Virus record (IMG/VR): IMGVR_UViG_3300027791_000172
Location: 1 to 20,421 of that record
DNA length: 20,421 nucleotides
Source: a virus
Reading direction: 5' to 3' (one strand)
Shown here: positions 3,326 through 15,340 of the stretch, in pieces
Layout of the letters: each line of letters opens with the position of its first letter
Position numbering within the stretch: the first letter of the stretch is position 1
Made by a program: the position numbers and the translations under genes
Notes under the pieces: model-generated
What the model was told of the DNA's origin: nothing
What the model saw: only the letters and a program-made list of their open reading frames with translations
Databases searched by the model: none

Positions 3326-4687
3326 ATGCAAGAACAAGTAGATACATTATCAAAATATGGGCAATCCTTTCAATCAAAGGTTCTTTCAGCTCTTCTTGTT
3401 GATGGTAAATTCTTAGATACTATATCTGAGATAACCACACCTAAGTTTTTCGAACATGATGCAAGTAAATGGATTGTTAGTGAAATATTAGAATATCATG
3501 AGGTATATAGACAACCACCAACACTAGATGTATTTAAATCTCAATTATCAAAAGTAGATAATCCAATTTTAAAGAAAACAGTAGTAGATCAACTACGACA
3601 CGTTTTCACTCAAGTTGGTAATGTTGATTTAGAATACATTAAGAATGAGTTTACGGATTTCTGTAAAAATCAAAACCTTAAAGGAGTTATATTACAATCA
3701 GTTGATTTACTTCAAGCTGGTCAGTATGATAAAATAAAAGTTTTAGTAGATAATGCAATGAAAGTTGGTACTGAAACCGATTTAGGACATGATTATAAGA
3801 TAGATTTTGATGAAAGAGCAAATGAATTAAAACGTTCTACTGTTCCAACCAATTGGCAACCTATAAATGATTTAATGGATGGAGGATTAGGACCAGGTGA
3901 ATTGGGAGTTGTAGTTGCACCATCAGGTGTAGGTAAAACTTGGATACTTACTGCATTGGGTGCAGATGCTGTTAGAAGAGGTTTAAGTGTGGTTCATTAC
4001 TCTATGGAGTTATCAGAACACTATGTGGGAGCACGTTATGATACTGTATTTACACAAATCCCCTCAACTGATTTAAAAGAAAGAAAAGAAGAGGTTAAAC
4101 ATAAAATAGAATCTTTACAAGGTAAATTACTTATTAAGTATTTTCCACCAAAGGGAGTTTCTGTAAGAAAGTTAAACCAACATATTGAAAAAATGATGAT
4201 TTCGGATAATAAACCTGATTTAATCATTGTAGATTATGCTGATTTACTATTATCTGATTCAAATAAACACGATTCAACATATGCTGAACAAGGTGGGGTT
4301 TATATTGACCTTCGTGGAATGGGTGGACAATTGGAAATTCCAATATGGACAGCATCTCAAACTAATCGTTCTGCTATTGATTCAGAAGTTATTGAAGCAG
4401 ATAAGATTGCAGATTCATATGCTAAAGTAATGAATGCAGATTTCATTATGAGTTGGAGTAGAAAATCAAAAGATAAATTGAATGATACTGCAAGAGCTCA
4501 CATCATGAAAAACAGATTTGGACCTGATGGAATTACGTTCCCATGTAAGATGAACACTAACACAGGATACATTGAAGTATATGATGGTAATTCACCAGAT
4601 GGTGTAATTGCAACAAAACAATCTGCAAGTGGACAGTTGGAAACTAAGAAATTACTTCATAAGAAGTATGTAGAAAACATGGGATAA
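3326..4687 (+). CDS. 41: Replicative DNA helicase, DnaB/T4 gp41 family
   Basis: A 453-aa RecA-fold hexameric helicase that would unwind the fork 5'-3' and recruit primase. The N-terminal ~150 residues resemble the DnaB-type helical N domain. The motor domain carries Walker A APSGVGKT at 198-205, SMELSE at 226-231, and Walker B LIIVDYADLL near 299-308. TASQTNRS (342-349) fits the DnaB sensor motif and KNRFGP (395-400) the arginine-finger segment. Length is close to T4 gp41 (about 475 aa). It has its own promoter at 3269-3300, and its TAA overlaps the ATG of the downstream methyltransferase by one base (TAATG), which suggests translational coupling. No primase (gp61) or helicase loader (gp59) gene is visible in this window. 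Confidence 0.93.
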   Translation: MQEQVDTLSKYGQSFQSKVLSALLVDGKFLDTISEITTPKFFEHDASKWIVSEILEYHEVYRQPPTLDVFKSQLSKVDNPILKKTVVDQLRHVFTQVGNVDLEYIKNEFTDFCKNQNLKGVILQSVDLLQAGQYDKIKVLVDNAMKVGTETDLGHDYKIDFDERANELKRSTVPTNWQPINDLMDGGLGPGELGVVVAPSGVGKTWILTALGADAVRRGLSVVHYSMELSEHYVGARYDTVFTQIPSTDLKERKEEVKHKIESLQGKLLIKYFPPKGVSVRKLNQHIEKMMISDNKPDLIIVDYADLLLSDSNKHDSTYAEQGGVYIDLRGMGGQLEIPIWTASQTNRSAIDSEVIEADKIADSYAKVMNADFIMSWSRKSKDKLNDTARAHIMKNRFGPDGITFPCKMNTNTGYIEVYDGNSPDGVIATKQSASGQLETKKLLHKKYVENMG

Positions 4688-5742
4688 TGATAAATTACGA
4701 ATCATTTGGTAAGTTCATTGAACATAATGAGTTAGATTTAGAATATCATAGGGTAACCCAAGATGTGTTTGAAATAGAAGATGTAGATACTGCATTGGAA
4801 ATTATTTTTAAATATCATCGTCAGAAAGGATTTCCTCATTATGATATTCCTACTCATAGGAGAGTACAACAATTTAAATCTTTAAAAAGATTTGATGAAC
4901 AAACGTTATTTAAAGATGGTAAAATAGACCAAACAATGCATGGATTATCACTTGCATGGACTTATTTTCCTCATTGGGTAGATGTGATTTGTGGTTCGAG
5001 TAAATTATCACCAATTGAATATTGGAATAACGATGATAAGTTAAAAGAGATTATTAGAAAAACTTGGAATTGGCAAATCAAACATGGTAGTGGTTCTTTT
5101 ACTTTAAATCGGTTAAGACAGAATTTAAAAATATATGGAGGGAATCAATCAGTATCCAATTTCAGACCTTCAGCAGCAAAATATATCTATAATACCTATG
5201 GAAATCAAGGAGTTGTATGGGATATGAGTTGTGGATGGGGAGGAAGGTTAATAGGATTCCTCACAAGTGATTGTAAGAAGTATATTGGTACTGAACCCTC
5301 AACTAAAACATTTGATGGACTAGAGAGGTTAAATACGGATATCAATTCGATTGGCAAAGAAGTAGAATTACATAAGTTAGGTTCAGAGGTTTTTAAACCA
5401 GAAAATGAATCTATTGATTTGTGTTTTACATCACCTCCTTATTTTGATACTGAAAAGTATGCAGATGAGGAAACCCAATCTTATAAAAAATATCCAACCG
5501 AAAGTGGATGGATAGATGGTTTTTTAAAAGATACGATTTCAAACTGTTATTGTAGTTTGAAAGTTGGTGGAAAGTTAATGTTAAACATCGCTAATACCAA
5601 AAAATATAAAACAATAGAAAACGAGACGATACGAATTTCTTCCGAAATTGGATTCAAACATACAGATACAATATATTTGATTTTATCATCTGTATCTGGA
5701 AATGGGGAAAAGTTAGAACCCATTTTTATATTTGAAAAATAG
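4687..5742 (+). CDS. DNA methyltransferase (TSPPY type), copy 1
   Basis: A 351-aa SAM-dependent methyltransferase, probably acting on the amino group of adenine or cytosine in DNA. The SAM-binding motif I reads DMSCGWGGRLIGF (179-191) and the catalytic motif IV is TSPPYFDTEKY (248-258). Only about 57 residues separate them, leaving no room for a recognition domain between, so target recognition would have to come from the long N-terminal half (residues 1-170) or the C-terminus. It is clearly related to the methyltransferase at 11867-13099: both have the GWG motif I, TSPPYF, a D/E-x-TQS element after it, and a C-terminus of the form EP-x-(F/W)-I. It could protect phage DNA from host restriction. 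No cognate endonuclease is nearby. Its start overlaps the helicase stop by one base. Confidence 0.85.
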   Translation: MINYESFGKFIEHNELDLEYHRVTQDVFEIEDVDTALEIIFKYHRQKGFPHYDIPTHRRVQQFKSLKRFDEQTLFKDGKIDQTMHGLSLAWTYFPHWVDVICGSSKLSPIEYWNNDDKLKEIIRKTWNWQIKHGSGSFTLNRLRQNLKIYGGNQSVSNFRPSAAKYIYNTYGNQGVVWDMSCGWGGRLIGFLTSDCKKYIGTEPSTKTFDGLERLNTDINSIGKEVELHKLGSEVFKPENESIDLCFTSPPYFDTEKYADEETQSYKKYPTESGWIDGFLKDTISNCYCSLKVGGKLMLNIANTKKYKTIENETIRISSEIGFKHTDTIYLILSSVSGNGEKLEPIFIFEK

Positions 5743-5807: not shown

Positions 5808-5850
5808 AATTATCGGAAATCTATTCTGTTTTTAGAATTAGATGATAATT
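5808..5850 (+). other. Stem-loop 2 in the same leader
   Basis: AATTATC (5808-5814) pairs with GATAATT (5844-5850). After a four-base bulge, ATCTA (5819-5823) pairs with TAGAT (5839-5843) and TTCT (5824-5827) with AGAA (5834-5837), leaving T5838 bulged and a GTTTTT loop, 16 pairs in all. The outer strand ATTATC could instead pair with GATAAT at 5798-5803 of stem-loop 1, so the two hairpins have a mutually exclusive alternative. Confidence 0.5.
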
Positions 5851-5856
5851 ATAAAC

Positions 5857-5876
5857 ACCTCCTTACGATGAGGGGG
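5857..5876 (+). promoter_or_regulatory. Anti-Shine-Dalgarno-like sequence and G-rich hairpin in the leader
   Basis: ACCTCCTTA at 5857-5865 is identical to the usual 3' tail of bacterial 16S rRNA. CCTCC (5858-5862) can pair with GGGGG (5872-5876), allowing one G-T pair, to give a small third hairpin about 30 bases before the Hc1-like start codon. This is the only G/C-rich patch in an otherwise very AT-rich leader. The role is unknown: it could regulate translation or bind a protein, or be chance. Confidence 0.35.
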
Positions 5877-5905
5877 ATTAAATAAATTAATAATTAATAA
5901 ATTTT

Positions 5906-6076
5906 ATGGCAAATTCAAACGAAATTTTCGAAAACATTAAAGAGTTATATACTCAATTCGAAGCAGAACACAATGGTAGCTCAAAGGCTTCTGCATCACG
6001 AGCAAGAAAAGCAATTGGTGAAATCAAGAAACTTGTAACAGACTACAGAAAAGTATCAGTAGAAGAAAACAAGTAA
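5906..6076 (+). CDS. Hc1-like (histone H1-like) DNA-binding protein, 56 aa
   Basis: Start ATG at 5906 and stop TAA at 6074-6076. The product begins MANSNEIFENIKELYTQFEA and contains SKASASRARKAIGEIKKL, followed by a short basic segment ending TDYRKVSVEENK. This matches the pattern of the small histone H1-like (Hc1 family) proteins common in Bacteroidota: an N-terminal helix, a K/R-rich 'RARKA' helix, then 'FRK/YRK-x-S'. Those proteins bind and compact DNA non-specifically. A phage copy could compact or protect phage or host DNA. It is 11 bases before nrdB and downstream of the three-hairpin leader, so probably co-transcribed with the nucleotide reductase genes. A SET-like protein two genes downstream could in principle modify it. 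The family assignment is from memory of the pattern. Confidence 0.75.
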   Translation: MANSNEIFENIKELYTQFEAEHNGSSKASASRARKAIGEIKKLVTDYRKVSVEENK

Positions 6077-6087
6077 TCTAGATAACT

Positions 6088-7101
6088 ATGAGCAAATTAT
6101 TCGAAGAAAGAATACCATTCAAACCATTTGAATATCCGATGTACTACACCGAAGGGTGGCTTAAACAAGCACAGGCATTTTGGTTACATACTGAAATATC
6201 TATGCAAGGAGATGTCAAGGATTGGAATGAAGTACTTACTGAATCTGAAAAAAACTTAGTTGGTAATATTCTTTTGGGATTTGCTCAAACTGAGTGTGCA
6301 GTATCTGATTATTGGACTAATATGGTTACCGATTGGTTTCCTAAACACGAGATAAGACAGATGGCAATGATGTTTGGTTCACAAGAAACAGTTCATGCTA
6401 CTGCATATTCATATCTAAATGAAACATTAGGATTAGATGATTTCTCAGCGTTTTTGCACGAACCTGCAATTGCTGAGAAGTTTGAACTCCTAACTGCAAC
6501 ATCCAATGAATGGAAACATACAGATTTGGCAACAAATCCTATTGCAAGAAAAGAAGTTGGTAGAAGTTTAGCAATCTTCTCTGCATTTAGTGAAGGAGTA
6601 TCCCTATACTCTTCATTTGCAGTGTTGTACTCATTCCAAATGAGAAATATGTTAAAAGGGATTGGACAACAAATGAAATGGAGTGTAAGAGATGAATCTC
6701 TACATTCTAAAATGGGTTGCCAATTATTCAGACACATGAGTGATGAATTCCCAGAATTACTAGGAGATGCCAAAGAAGGTATCTACGAAGCAGCAAAACT
6801 TATCATACAATTAGAACACAACTTCATTGATATGATATTTGAACAAGGTGATTTAGAAAACCTTAAAAAGAAAGATTTAAAAAACTTTATCGTAAAAAGA
6901 GTAAATGAGAAACTTCTTGAACTTGGATATGAAGTAAAAGAAGGTACTGATGATTACTTTGAATATGATAAAAAATCAGCATCCGAATTAGATTGGTTCT
7001 ACCACTTAACCGGTGGATTGACACATACTGATTTCTTCGCTATTAGACCTACTGATTATAGTAAGGCAAATGAAGGTGAAGATTGGGGAGATTTATTTTA
7101 A
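6088..7101 (+). CDS. nrdB: Ribonucleotide reductase class I, beta subunit (NrdB)
   Basis: A 337-aa R2 protein that would house the di-iron centre and tyrosyl radical used by NrdA to reduce ribonucleotides. All expected ligands are visible: E69 (FAQTE), E100 and H103 with the radical tyrosine Y107 (QETVHATAY), E169 (FSAFSEG), and E203 and H206 (RDESLH). The 31-residue step from the first to the second carboxylate equals that in E. coli R2, where the first ligand is Asp; here it is Glu. Because the radical tyrosine is present, this looks like a conventional Tyr-radical enzyme. The gene lies 11 bases after the Hc1-like gene, and a SET-like ORF separates it from nrdA. Confidence 0.94.
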   Translation: MSKLFEERIPFKPFEYPMYYTEGWLKQAQAFWLHTEISMQGDVKDWNEVLTESEKNLVGNILLGFAQTECAVSDYWTNMVTDWFPKHEIRQMAMMFGSQETVHATAYSYLNETLGLDDFSAFLHEPAIAEKFELLTATSNEWKHTDLATNPIARKEVGRSLAIFSAFSEGVSLYSSFAVLYSFQMRNMLKGIGQQMKWSVRDESLHSKMGCQLFRHMSDEFPELLGDAKEGIYEAAKLIIQLEHNFIDMIFEQGDLENLKKKDLKNFIVKRVNEKLLELGYEVKEGTDDYFEYDKKSASELDWFYHLTGGLTHTDFFAIRPTDYSKANEGEDWGDLF

Positions 7102-7111
7102 AAAATAGTTA

Positions 7112-7531
7112 ATGACACCATTTGATTACTTAAATACAAGTATTAAATCATATCAACGAGTTAGTAGTTTACAAGGAATTGGATTATTTGCGTTGATTGA
7201 TATAAAAAAAGGTGAAACTCTTTTCCCAAAATGGAAAGGAGAAACAGATTGGTATAAAATAAAGTTTAGTGAGGCTAAACTATTACCAAGAGAAGTGTTT
7301 GCATACATACTTCGTTCATTTGTAAGTAAAATTGAAGATGATAACTCATATATCAATTTCAGATTAGTTAAAGATACTAATTTCTTATTTACAGAACCAT
7401 TATGCTTACTAAACTCAAAAGAAGAAAATGGTAACGTTGATTCCAGTTATGGAATTTCGTTATGTGATATAAAAAAAGATGAAGAACTGTATGGAAACTA
7501 TGAGTACAAACCAACAGTAGTTCTTATATAA
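7112..7531 (+). CDS. Small SET-domain-like protein
   Basis: A 139-aa protein whose ends resemble a SET lysine-methyltransferase domain. GIGLFALIDIKKGETLF (22-38) fits the N-terminal 'G-x-GlfA-x-x-dIkkGe' signature. DIKKDEELYGNYEY (119-132) fits the C-terminal 'dI-x-x-GEEl-x-x-dY' signature with its terminal tyrosine. Between them, LLNSKEENGNVD (99-110) stands where canonical SET proteins have an N-H-S/C-x-x-x-N motif; the histidine is not obvious, so activity is uncertain. Length equals a bare SET domain with no pre- or post-SET cysteine clusters. It sits between nrdB (10 bases upstream) and nrdA (20 bases downstream). The substrate is unknown; the Hc1-like protein encoded at 5906-6076 is an appealing candidate by inference only. 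Confidence 0.6.
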   Translation: MTPFDYLNTSIKSYQRVSSLQGIGLFALIDIKKGETLFPKWKGETDWYKIKFSEAKLLPREVFAYILRSFVSKIEDDNSYINFRLVKDTNFLFTEPLCLLNSKEENGNVDSSYGISLCDIKKDEELYGNYEYKPTVVLI

Positions 7532-7551: not shown

Positions 7552-9333
7552 ATGGCTAAAAATTACGGTGAAGAATTGGGATGGGAACTTGATGTAGATT
7601 TTCCATCATGGGGAAATACTGAGATATATGTTAAAACAATATCTAAAGGATATTTACTTGTTGGTGAAAAACCAAAGGATGCATATTGGAGAGTTGCATC
7701 ACGAGTTGCAATGCGATTAGGTAAACCACAACTAGCAACCAAATTCTTTGACTATATATGGAAGGGTTGGTTGAACTTAGCAACACCTGTTCTTTCAAAT
7801 ACTGGTACTGATAGGGGATTGCCTATTAGTTGTTTTGGTATTGATGTAGCTGATTCCATATATGATATCGGTTCTAAGAACTTAGAATTAATGTTACTTG
7901 CCAAACATGGTGGTGGGGTTGGTGTTGGTATCAACCAAATCAGACCAGCGGGTTCTACTATTACAGGTAATGGAACATCTGATGGTGTAATACCATTTGC
8001 AAAAATATACGATTCAACAATACTCGCAACCAATCAAGGTTCGGTACGAAGAGGAGCTGCATCTGTTAACCTTAACATAGAACATAAAGATTTCGAAGAG
8101 TGGTTAGAAATCAGAGAACCAAAAGGAGATGTAAACAGACAATCATTAAATCTACACCAATGTGCAGTAGTAGGTGATAAGTTTATGAGAAAACTTCAAG
8201 ATGGTGATCCTGATTCTCGTAGAAAGTGGGGAAAATTATTACAAAAAAGAAAAGCAACTGGTGAACCATATATTATGTATAAGGGAAATGTTAATAAAGC
8301 AAATCCAGAAGCTTATAAGAAAAATGGTTTAAAAGTTCATATGACAAACATATGTTCTGAAATTACACTACATACCGATGAAAATCATTCATTTGTTTGT
8401 TGTTTATCTTCATTAAACTTATCCAAGTACAACGAGTGGAAAGATACTGATTTAGTTTATACAGCAACTTGGTTCTTGGATGGTGTACTTGAAGAGTTTA
8501 TACAGAAAGCAAAGAATATGAAAGGATTCGAACATTCTGTTGCATCTGCTGAAAAAGGTAGAGCATTAGGATTGGGAGTTTTAGGATGGCACACATATCT
8601 ACAACAAAATGGTATTCCATTTGAAGGTATGGAAGCACAATTCGAAACTCGTAAGATTTTCTCTCAATTAAAGATTGAATCTGAAAGAGCAAGTAGAGAT
8701 ATGGGTGAGGAAATGGGAGAACCATTGTGGTGTAGAGAAACGAATATGAGAAATACTCACTTAAGAGCAATTGCACCAACCGTATCTAATTCAAAATTAA
8801 GTGGAAACGTTTCTGCAGGTATTGAACCATGGGCTGCAAATGTATTCACAGAACAAACATCTAAGGGAACGTTTATTAGAAAAAATGCTGAACTAGAAAA
8901 AGTTCTAAGAAAAGCTGGTATCAATAATAAAGATACTTGGGATAAAATATTAGCTGATGGTGGTTCTGTACAAGATGTTCCTGAATTGGATAAGTGGTGT
9001 TACTTAAATGGAAAAATGTTATTATGTGCAGAAATAGGTGATGAGGATAGAACAAAAACATATCCTGTTAAAGATGTTTACAGAACTTTTAAAGAAATCA
9101 ACCAAATGGATTTAGTTAAACAAGCGGGCGTAAGACAACAATATATTGACCAAGGAGTTTCATTAAACTTGGCATTTCCATCGATAGTTGAACCAAAGTG
9201 GATTAACCAAGTAACGATGGAAGCTTGGAAACAAGGAATTAAAACATTGTACTACATGAGAACTGAATCAGTACTTCGTGGTGATATAGCACAAAGAGCT
9301 CTTGACCCGGATTGCGTAGCCTGTGATGGATAA
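7552..9333 (+). CDS. nrdA: Ribonucleotide reductase class I, alpha subunit (NrdA), without ATP cone
   Basis: A 593-aa catalytic subunit that makes deoxyribonucleotides. The R1 barrel is recognisable: LATPVLSNTG (76-85), the redox cysteine C94 (PISCFG), the AKHGGGVGVGINQIR segment near 117-131, active-site N266/C268/E270 (TNICSE), the second redox cysteine at C283 or C284 (VCCLSSLNL), paired radical-transfer tyrosines Y567-Y568 (TLYYMRTES), and a C-terminal CVAC pair (C588, C591) that would be re-reduced by thioredoxin. The N-terminus enters the R1 alpha domain almost at once, so the ATP-cone activity-control domain of E. coli NrdA is missing, which accounts for most of the shorter length. The likely reductant is encoded at 9902-10162. 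The stop overlaps the next start by one base (TAATG). Confidence 0.94.
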   Translation: MAKNYGEELGWELDVDFPSWGNTEIYVKTISKGYLLVGEKPKDAYWRVASRVAMRLGKPQLATKFFDYIWKGWLNLATPVLSNTGTDRGLPISCFGIDVADSIYDIGSKNLELMLLAKHGGGVGVGINQIRPAGSTITGNGTSDGVIPFAKIYDSTILATNQGSVRRGAASVNLNIEHKDFEEWLEIREPKGDVNRQSLNLHQCAVVGDKFMRKLQDGDPDSRRKWGKLLQKRKATGEPYIMYKGNVNKANPEAYKKNGLKVHMTNICSEITLHTDENHSFVCCLSSLNLSKYNEWKDTDLVYTATWFLDGVLEEFIQKAKNMKGFEHSVASAEKGRALGLGVLGWHTYLQQNGIPFEGMEAQFETRKIFSQLKIESERASRDMGEEMGEPLWCRETNMRNTHLRAIAPTVSNSKLSGNVSAGIEPWAANVFTEQTSKGTFIRKNAELEKVLRKAGINNKDTWDKILADGGSVQDVPELDKWCYLNGKMLLCAEIGDEDRTKTYPVKDVYRTFKEINQMDLVKQAGVRQQYIDQGVSLNLAFPSIVEPKWINQVTMEAWKQGIKTLYYMRTESVLRGDIAQRALDPDCVACDG

Positions 9334-11866: not shown

Positions 11867-13099
11867 ATGACTAACGGAGAAGATATATTATCAAAGTATA
11901 GAAAAGGCACTTTCGTTGGAGAATTTCCAACCATTTCAGAACATGATTTTGAATTATTAAAAGAAACATACCCGAAGGATACTGTTAAAGAAATGATGGC
12001 AGAATTATTCATGGAGTATCCAATACCATATGCTGATATTACTGAAGAAGATGCTTATAATGATTTTTTAAAACTTAAAGGTTTTAGATGGAGTGAGTAT
12101 CTTAAAGAAGGTGAATGGTTTCCACGAAAAGCAGCGGAATCTAAATATCCATTAACATACGATGGAAAACAACAATACTTTTCTCGTATCAATACAGGTA
12201 ACAGAGCATCTAATTATTTCCAACAACACAACAGATGGAGTGTAGATGGTTCAGTTTCACCAGGTCCAAAAAGAACTTGGGAAACGAAAGCATTTATGGT
12301 ATCTTTAATGGGAGCATCTTATTCTTTAAAATTACCACAAGTTGGTAAAAAGGAATTAAGAACAATGATTGGATTACGCAAGTATATATGTGCCCAGTTC
12401 AAGCCAAATGTTGCCAAGATGTTTTATGATATGAATAATGCTAAAACTGTACTTGATTTCTCAATGGGATGGGGTGATAGATTAGCAGGTGCATTTTCAA
12501 GTGAAACAGTTGAACATTATGTAGGGTTAGACCCTCGTAAAGAAAATCATCCTATCTATGAACAACAAAGAGATTTCTATACCAAACATACATCTTTCTT
12601 TGAAACACCTACCAAAACAAACTTCTATGAATCACCAGCAGAAGATTTCAACTATGATGAGTATAATGATTACTTTGATGTAGTATTTACATCACCACCA
12701 TACTTTTCAGTTGAAAGATATTCACACGATGATACACAGAGCTGGGTAAGATATAAAAACATAAACGATTGGAACAAGAATTTTTTACATACTACGTTGG
12801 GTAAGATTATACCAACAGTTAAGAAAGGTGGTATTATTGCAATTAACATCGCTGATGTTTATGCAAGTTCTAAAGGTGATAAGGGTTGGCTAGAAATTTG
12901 TAATCCAATGATTGAATACCTCACTTCTAAGGGATTAACTTATAAGGGGTGTATTGGTATGGAAATGGCAAAAAGACCTAATAGTGGTGGTGCAGGAACT
13001 GCTAAAGATGGACAACAGTATTCAGAGGAGAGTTTACAGTTGGCAGAAGAAACAAAAAACCAAACTTTTTGTGAACCTGTGTGGATAGTTCAAAAATAA
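11867..13099 (+). CDS. DNA methyltransferase (TSPPY type), copy 2
   Basis: A 410-aa SAM-dependent amino-methyltransferase. Motif I is DFSMGWGDRLAGAF (197-210), motif IV is TSPPYFSVERY (275-285), followed by DDTQSWVRY, and the late strand reads GGIIAINIADVY (321-332). It shares these features and the EP-x-W-I-V C-terminal end with the enzyme at 4687-5742, but is about 60 residues longer, with a different N-terminal half (1-190), where sequence recognition may lie. Two divergent members in one phage suggest two target sequences or an unusual substrate. It is the last gene before the promoter at 13111. Whether the product is N6-methyladenine or N4-methylcytosine cannot be read from motif IV. Confidence 0.85.
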   Translation: MTNGEDILSKYRKGTFVGEFPTISEHDFELLKETYPKDTVKEMMAELFMEYPIPYADITEEDAYNDFLKLKGFRWSEYLKEGEWFPRKAAESKYPLTYDGKQQYFSRINTGNRASNYFQQHNRWSVDGSVSPGPKRTWETKAFMVSLMGASYSLKLPQVGKKELRTMIGLRKYICAQFKPNVAKMFYDMNNAKTVLDFSMGWGDRLAGAFSSETVEHYVGLDPRKENHPIYEQQRDFYTKHTSFFETPTKTNFYESPAEDFNYDEYNDYFDVVFTSPPYFSVERYSHDDTQSWVRYKNINDWNKNFLHTTLGKIIPTVKKGGIIAINIADVYASSKGDKGWLEICNPMIEYLTSKGLTYKGCIGMEMAKRPNSGGAGTAKDGQQYSEESLQLAEETKNQTFCEPVWIVQK

Positions 13100-13778: not shown

Positions 13779-14196
13779 ATATAAGTTCAAAAATAGAAAA
13801 TACCCAAAGGATTTTCAATCTGTATGTGACTATATAAAACACAAAAAAGGAGTTGTTGTAAAATTAGGACATATAACTTCTTTCATGGGACATTTTAATA
13901 GAACCATTTTTGTTCATCACAACTATGATTTAACAAATAATGGATTATATGCCTTACTACATGAAGTAGGACATGCGTTACAACCACCAACTGCTGTTGG
14001 TTCGAACTCGTATAAGAATATAGATGATGATACTAACAAACGAGAGTTTGAAATGGGTAGATTTGTAAATGAATTAAACGCATGGGAAATTGGATTATCA
14101 ATTGCTAATAAACTAAAAATTTCATTAAATAAAGATGATTGGAATAAACAAAAAGATGAGGCTCTTCTTACTTATTGGCCTAATAACTCTAAGTAG
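13771..14196 (+). CDS. HExxH zinc metallopeptidase-like protein
   Basis: A 141-aa protein with a zincin active site LLHEVGHAL (H64, E65, H68) and a downstream NELNAWEIG segment (E101 or E106) that would supply the third zinc ligand. The 'HE-x-GH ... E-x-x-AW' layout is typical of small single-domain phage and ImmA/IrrE-like peptidases. No signal peptide, so it probably acts in the cytoplasm, for instance cleaving a repressor, a host regulator or a phage precursor; the target is unknown. It overlaps the preceding ORF by eight bases, and its 3' end overlaps the lipoprotein gene by 62 bases (41 if that gene starts at 14156). Confidence 0.8.
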   Translation: MGRYKFKNRKYPKDFQSVCDYIKHKKGVVVKLGHITSFMGHFNRTIFVHHNYDLTNNGLYALLHEVGHALQPPTAVGSNSYKNIDDDTNKREFEMGRFVNELNAWEIGLSIANKLKISLNKDDWNKQKDEALLTYWPNNSK

Positions 14197-15340
14197 TTGT
14201 GAGCACGAAGAATTTGGTGAAATAGATATTCCACCACCTATATCTCAGACAATTTACAAAGAATCCTATTTAAATCAAAGAAGTGGAACATACTTCATTT
14301 GGGGAAATGGATCTGAAAGTTATAGTTTGAACATCGGAACAAATCAAACCGGTGGTACGTTGGAATTCTCACAAGGAGCATCATACTATGATGTTAACAA
14401 TGATGGATTTCAAGATATTTTAGCATGTCCATACTATGATGATGGTACAATACGAAGAGCATCTGCTCATTGGTTTATTAATGAAGGAGATGATAAAACT
14501 TACATAAAAGATTCTTCTTTTATAAATGACAATACGGATGGATTTACGGGACATAAGATATTAAAAACTGATGTAAATAATGATAATCTAGCTGATTTCA
14601 TTTTATTGGGAGTTGATGAAAGTCAACCAGGAAACTATGGAGGAAACTTTACGGTATTAATTCAACAAACAGATTCTACATTTAATGTTAATGAAGTTGA
14701 TAATGGATTTGGTCTATGGTATCATAACGGAGCTACAGGAGATATTAACGGTGATGGGAATGTTGATGTGATAACTGCTCAAGATATTTGGTATGGTGAT
14801 GGTACTGGTAATTTTACAAATTCTAATTTTGATTTACATCAATATACCAACCCTATTTTAACATATGAAATTATTGATATAAATAAAGATGGATTTAATG
14901 ATATGGTATTGGGTACACATGAGATTTATGGATATACTACATCAATTGTACTTGGCAAATCAAATGGATTTGATACTTCAAATACAGTAATCCCACTCCC
15001 AAACACTAACACAGAATATACCATGGACATTGAATTCATGGATATTGATAATGATGGTGATCTGGATATAATTGAAGGAAGATATGATGGCAATCGTTCT
15101 GAACTTGTATTATATATAAATCATAATCTAAATTTTACATTAGATACCACAATACTTTCAGAATCACTAGATGGTGGTGGTATAAATGGAAGTAGTGATA
15201 ACTATGGATGGACTCAATTCAAAATAGATGATATTGATAAAGATGGGGTTGATGATATTATTTGTGAAAATTATCATGATGGCATTTATAATGGATTGAA
15301 ACTAATAAATGGAGTGTGGGTAAAGCATATTTTTAATTAA
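14135..15340 (+). CDS. Surface lipoprotein with FG-GAP/VCBS-like repeats
   Basis: A 401-aa protein with a lipoprotein signal: basic N-terminus, hydrophobic LFLLIGLITL and lipobox LSSC at residues 19-22. The start may be ATG 14135 or the in-frame ATG 14156 (MRLFLLIG...), which gives a more typical signal peptide. The cysteine is followed by E-H-E-E-F-G-E, an acidic stretch of the kind that sends Bacteroidota lipoproteins to the cell surface. The body carries six calcium-binding-like D-x-(D/N)-x-D/N-G repeats: DVNNDGFQD, DVNNDNLAD, DINGDGNVD, DINKDGFND, DIDNDGDLD and DIDKDGVDD. This is the signature of FG-GAP/VCBS beta-propeller proteins. A phage-coded surface lipoprotein could block superinfection, mask a receptor or alter adhesion. 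It overlaps the metallopeptidase gene and ends just before the polymerase promoter. Confidence 0.85.
   Translation: MIGINKKMRLFLLIGLITLSSCEHEEFGEIDIPPPISQTIYKESYLNQRSGTYFIWGNGSESYSLNIGTNQTGGTLEFSQGASYYDVNNDGFQDILACPYYDDGTIRRASAHWFINEGDDKTYIKDSSFINDNTDGFTGHKILKTDVNNDNLADFILLGVDESQPGNYGGNFTVLIQQTDSTFNVNEVDNGFGLWYHNGATGDINGDGNVDVITAQDIWYGDGTGNFTNSNFDLHQYTNPILTYEIIDINKDGFNDMVLGTHEIYGYTTSIVLGKSNGFDTSNTVIPLPNTNTEYTMDIEFMDIDNDGDLDIIEGRYDGNRSELVLYINHNLNFTLDTTILSESLDGGGINGSSDNYGWTQFKIDDIDKDGVDDIICENYHDGIYNGLKLINGVWVKHIFN

Follow-up and report, generated by a model that had tools for sequence, protein, structure and literature searches.

A protein of 139 amino acids encoded in the replication operon of a marine, Bacteroidota-type phage belongs with high confidence to the SET family as a diverged member, and is probably a minimal, SAM-dependent protein-lysine methyltransferase. 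Its gene is optional cargo in the variable slot that separates nrdB from nrdA, and it has repeatedly been gained or lost while the gene for a histone-like Hc1 protein remains. A methyltransferase related to guanidinoacetate methyltransferase (GAMT), which adjoins SET genes in related phages, is a more consistent partner of SET than Hc1.

The replication operon and its leader

The stretch of DNA analysed here (the window) is a virus record of 20,421 bases. Its replication operon encodes a gp32-like SSB, RecA, a FEN-like exonuclease, DnaB, a DNA-methylase-like protein, Hc1, NrdB, the SET protein, NrdA and thioredoxin, followed later by PolB and GroEL. The nearest cultured relatives of the NrdB are those of Flavobacterium phage immuto and Cellulophaga phage phi14:2, with 51-52% identity. 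The Hc1-like protein of 56 amino acids (PF07432; positions 5906-6076) is encoded by the first gene of its unit, and most related contigs conserve that gene ahead of nrdB. It is followed by nrdB for the small subunit of class I ribonucleotide reductase (6088-7101; 337 amino acids; PF00268, E=7.3e-55), the SET gene (7112-7531) and nrdA for the large subunit (7552-9333; phrog_84, E=6.9e-152), which forms the far border of the cargo slot. All of these lie on the plus strand, and the Hc1, nrdB and SET reading frames are separated from their neighbours by gaps of only 10-20 bp. Thus both reading frames that the sequence-only reading of this DNA had singled out, the histone-like and the SET-like, are present, with nrdB between them. 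Elsewhere in the window, two related DNA-methylase-like proteins (4687-5742 and 11867-13099) each match phrog_12517, and a 401-amino-acid FG-GAP-repeat protein with a lipoprotein-like signal (LITLSSC) is encoded within the replication region (14135-15340).

The leader of the Hc1 unit (5844-5880, plus strand) contains a box, ATAATTATAAACAC, followed by a hairpin (CCTCCTTA/TGAGGGGG). The hairpin forms in 42 of 55 distinct leaders with 28 different stems and a mean z of -2.9 against mononucleotide shuffles, so that the stem varies while its pairing is kept. A single copy of the exact 12-base box (AATTATAAACAC) is present per locus in 59 loci; it always precedes Hc1, by about 60 bases. A general phage promoter was rejected, because in the loci examined the exact 12-mer is found only upstream of Hc1. 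The element may combine a promoter with a leader hairpin for the Hc1-nrd unit. An Rfam search of the window gave no match.

The SET-domain protein

Residues 22-130 of the 139-amino-acid protein match the SET profile PF00856 with E=2.5e-4 and 21.8 bits, 0.6 below the cut-off of 22.4. All 36 of its aligned relatives match SET at E<=0.1 (best 4.3e-7), several of them passing the cut-off (22.4-25.5 bits), which supports the family assignment of the sequence-only reading. When a profile of the family was searched against the PDB, the top matches were only SET histone methyltransferases, with weak E-values (best 0.0045). The gene has a dN/dS of about 0.18-0.29 against seven relatives; this purifying selection marks it as a selected coding gene and not a chance reading frame.

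An AlphaFold model based on the 36-sequence alignment is confident (pLDDT 89.4, pTM 0.78); an earlier model from 13 sequences was poor (pLDDT 50.1) and was set aside. With the confident model, Foldseek places SET domains in the top ranks with a probability of 1.00 and 93 PDB matches at E<=0.001, and among viral models it again finds SET proteins, some of them from uncultured Caudovirales. The superpositions onto SET domains are nevertheless poor (TM 0.3-0.46, rmsd about 14 A): local geometry agrees but overall packing does not, and the model therefore does not confirm the knotted SET core. Structure prediction favours a SET domain by its matches and not by its global superposition; a SET fold is considered very probable.

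Among the top Foldseek matches are likewise small viral SET domains, namely a protein of uncultured Caudovirales (A0A6J5L8Y2), E3T5I8 of Cafeteria roenbergensis virus and vSET of PBCV-1 (PDB 3kma), which share about 13-24% identity with the window protein. vSET acts on histone H3 of its eukaryotic host. The family of the window differs from these proteins in lacking the histidine of the NHSC motif and in residing in a bacteriophage replication operon. No relative of the window SET was found in a phage collection by tblastn at E<=1, and no relative of the SET or of the window Hc1 was found in genome contigs among the stretches matching narrow scan patterns, so that bacterial homologues may exist. 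A PADLOC search linked SET to no defence system.

Five residues are invariant in the 36 aligned sequences: G22 and G24, which form a GxG near the N-terminus, N101, and E125 and Y130 of a C-terminal GEEL..Y motif. The NHSC motif is degenerate throughout the family, its asparagine (N101) being kept and followed by serine or threonine where histidine is canonical. SET activity could therefore be lost or altered, and the fold might be inactive or re-purposed, for example to bind or scaffold the methyltransferase, as fusions of SET to that enzyme and to DUF6065 might also suggest. The invariance of the motif asparagine, the GxG and the C-terminal tyrosine in 36 of 36 sequences makes this unlikely. 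Moreover, PRDM9 is active though it has no canonical NHSC motif. A lysine methyltransferase activity is the more probable role of the protein, in which SAM would be bound via the GxG and the N101 region and Y130 would serve lysine methylation.

A variable slot beside a constant Hc1

Relatives of the operon were gathered with three baits, SET, Hc1 and the accompanying methyltransferase. Their commonest arrangement is Hc1 followed by nrdB and nrdA. The slot between nrdB and nrdA contains SET alone (as in the window), the methyltransferase then SET, a fused methyltransferase~SET, a methyltransferase~2OG-Fe(II) oxygenase, an oxygenase, MazG, SET plus MazG, or nothing. The nrdB-nrdA interval could be read in 99 loci, of which 72 have both SET and Hc1, 26 have Hc1 without SET and one has SET without Hc1, a ratio that is not a prevalence because the sample mixes loci recruited by SET and by Hc1. 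Hc1 is present in 98 of them, and the one locus without it is on a 5-kb contig that starts at nrdB. Mapped onto a tree of 41 distinct NrdB proteins, SET switches between present and absent eight times by parsimony, and at least six of these changes are forced by well-supported branches, while Hc1 stays. SET is thus an optional cargo gene, and Hc1 is a constant, separate core gene of these phages. SET of the window family was absent from 25 Hc1-containing contigs of 11-113 kb. The sequence-only reading had placed SET and Hc1 in one operon and had envisaged a functional pair of a histone and a lysine methyltransferase; the survey of related phages finds the two often together, but they are not gained and lost together, as six to eight changes of SET beside a constant Hc1 testify.

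The Hc1 family assignment itself is sound: residues 5-56 match PF07432 with E=2.4e-9 and 37.3 bits (cut-off 23.5), covering profile positions 1-56 of 57. The description of the protein as rich in lysines was overstated, for 7 lysines and 3 arginines stand against 8 glutamates and 1 aspartate, giving a nearly balanced charge (pI 8.0). The phage protein stops where the Pfam domain stops, and a basic lysine-rich tail is absent. In Chlamydia, one part of Hc1 is described as dimerising while a lysine-rich C-terminal tail binds DNA (PMC2848022); compared with that account, the phage protein corresponds to the dimerising part alone, without the DNA-binding tail. Compaction of DNA by the phage protein would follow from the family name only, since nothing follows the Pfam domain and the charge is nearly balanced. 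PF07432 has already been reported in phages, namely in jumbo phages termed 'moraphages' with predicted Bacteroidota hosts (PMC12619734). By description, these are like the window phage in encoding an Hc1-like protein and a family B polymerase and in their Bacteroidota hosts; they differ in that the paper describing them mentions no SET domain.

The proposal that SET tunes DNA compaction by methylating lysines of the phage Hc1-like protein or of a host Hc1 draws on a chlamydial precedent, which is contested. Methylation of Hc1 was found for the SET protein cpnSET of C. pneumoniae (Murata 2007, cited in PMC3980110), but not for the secreted C. trachomatis NUE (PMC2904774). Both are bacterial-type SET enzymes of genomes that also encode Hc1, and they are likened to the window by description. 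In the phages themselves, one clade (L147-L166) fits such coupling better than the explanation preferred here. It has the order DnaB-Hc1-SET-MazG-NrdB'-NrdA', in which SET follows Hc1 after 5-10 bp (5 bp in L152) and lies apart from the methyltransferase. Its NrdB' and NrdA' are about 31% and 37% identical to those of the window and represent a distant xenologous pair; Hc1, SET and MazG are retained upstream, so that SET either outlasted the replacement of nrdAB or came with it. A tight dependence of SET on a particular NrdAB is thereby excluded, whereas coupling to Hc1 is compatible with this arrangement. SET directly follows Hc1 in 12 of 44 distinct SET proteins, all 12 from this clade, and five lysines of the phage Hc1 (K27, K41, K42, K49 and K56) are invariant. 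On the other hand, Hc1 proteins are letter-for-letter identical in phages with and without SET in two cases (the window and L015; L050/L116 and L047/L049/L053), and therefore no SET-dependent residue is visible in Hc1. In one phage (L118), about 34 kb separate SET from Hc1, which there follows GroEL. Hc1 was not detected in SET-containing contigs with a DUF6065~SET fusion (L129-L134, up to 105 kb), in L121 (73 kb) or in those with SET followed by the methyltransferase (L200-L204 and L207, up to 326 kb), an absence that is tentative, less so at 326 kb, because the completeness of these records is not established. With the missing lysine-rich tail and the negative result for NUE in addition, Hc1 is probably not a dedicated substrate, and its methylation by SET is improbable. 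Modification of the ribonucleotide reductase encoded by the flanking genes is more improbable still: in the window and in many relatives the two nrd genes do enclose SET, but the slot also takes unrelated cargo (MazG) or nothing, and SET persists beside distant NrdAB xenologues and also occurs far from nrd genes.

The methyltransferase partner and protein modification

The methyltransferase beside SET matches GAMT structures in the PDB with E=4.8e-14 over the cofactor-binding part only (residues 23-119). The GAMT family also includes RMT2-type arginine methyltransferases. In PADLOC, the enzyme matched mad2 only via the methyltransferase region. It precedes SET in the nrd slot for nine distinct SET proteins of Hc1-containing loci and at another locus in three phages (L118, L119 and L165), follows SET in L200-L204 and L207, and is fused to SET in L014/L122, L117 and L121. 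Such a variety of gene orders, with fusions in addition, argues more strongly for a functional link than one conserved neighbourhood would. The methyltransferase is absent from the window itself, and many SET genes, including that of the window, have no adjoining one.

Other SET-containing loci were seen among the contigs. A contig of 213 kb that also has Hc1 and the methyltransferase-SET pair encodes a second, canonical SET protein (FINHSETPN, 117 amino acids) adjoining thymidylate synthase (L167:1154-1507, minus strand). The fusion of DUF6065 to a SET domain in L133 (7158-8420) adjoins PolB. A jumbo phage contig (L202:1151-8558; also L207) encodes a HINT/intein-like protein of 751 amino acids, a conserved protein of 47 amino acids, SET, the methyltransferase, four 2OG-Fe(II) oxygenases, a radical SAM protein and an SGNH hydrolase, which as a cluster may be read as a set of protein-modifying enzymes. 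The N-terminal part of its HINT protein is also present in four of the tested Hc1-containing phage contigs.

The preferred explanation is that the window protein is an accessory SET enzyme, most likely a protein-lysine methyltransferase, carried in the variable slot of a conserved replication operon. It would be expressed alongside the replication and dNTP genes, and its target would be some protein of phage or host, though not Hc1, in the infected cell or the virion. SET would often act beside the GAMT/RMT2-type methyltransferase and, in relatives, also beside 2OG-Fe(II) oxygenases, and their association suggests protein-modifying enzymes that may share a target or a pathway. A bolder and rather doubtful extension is that large Bacteroidota phages carry a mobile cassette in which SET, the GAMT/RMT2-like methyltransferase and 2OG-Fe(II) oxygenases modify one phage or host protein, the window SET being a single-enzyme remnant or version of it.

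To our knowledge, bacteriophage SET proteins have merely been annotated and none has a known function; within the papers searched, the only match was a review on Chlamydia, and nothing published on SET enzymes of phages came up. This family, which lacks the usual histidine and occurs together with hydroxylases and another methyltransferase, is readily accessible as a model. The finding that SET and Hc1 do not come and go as a unit spares effort on a tempting, weakly founded model of phage chromatin, and it raises the better question of a common target of SET and the GAMT-like enzyme. If the cassette is real, it would be a phage system that combines lysine methylation, further methylation and hydroxylation.
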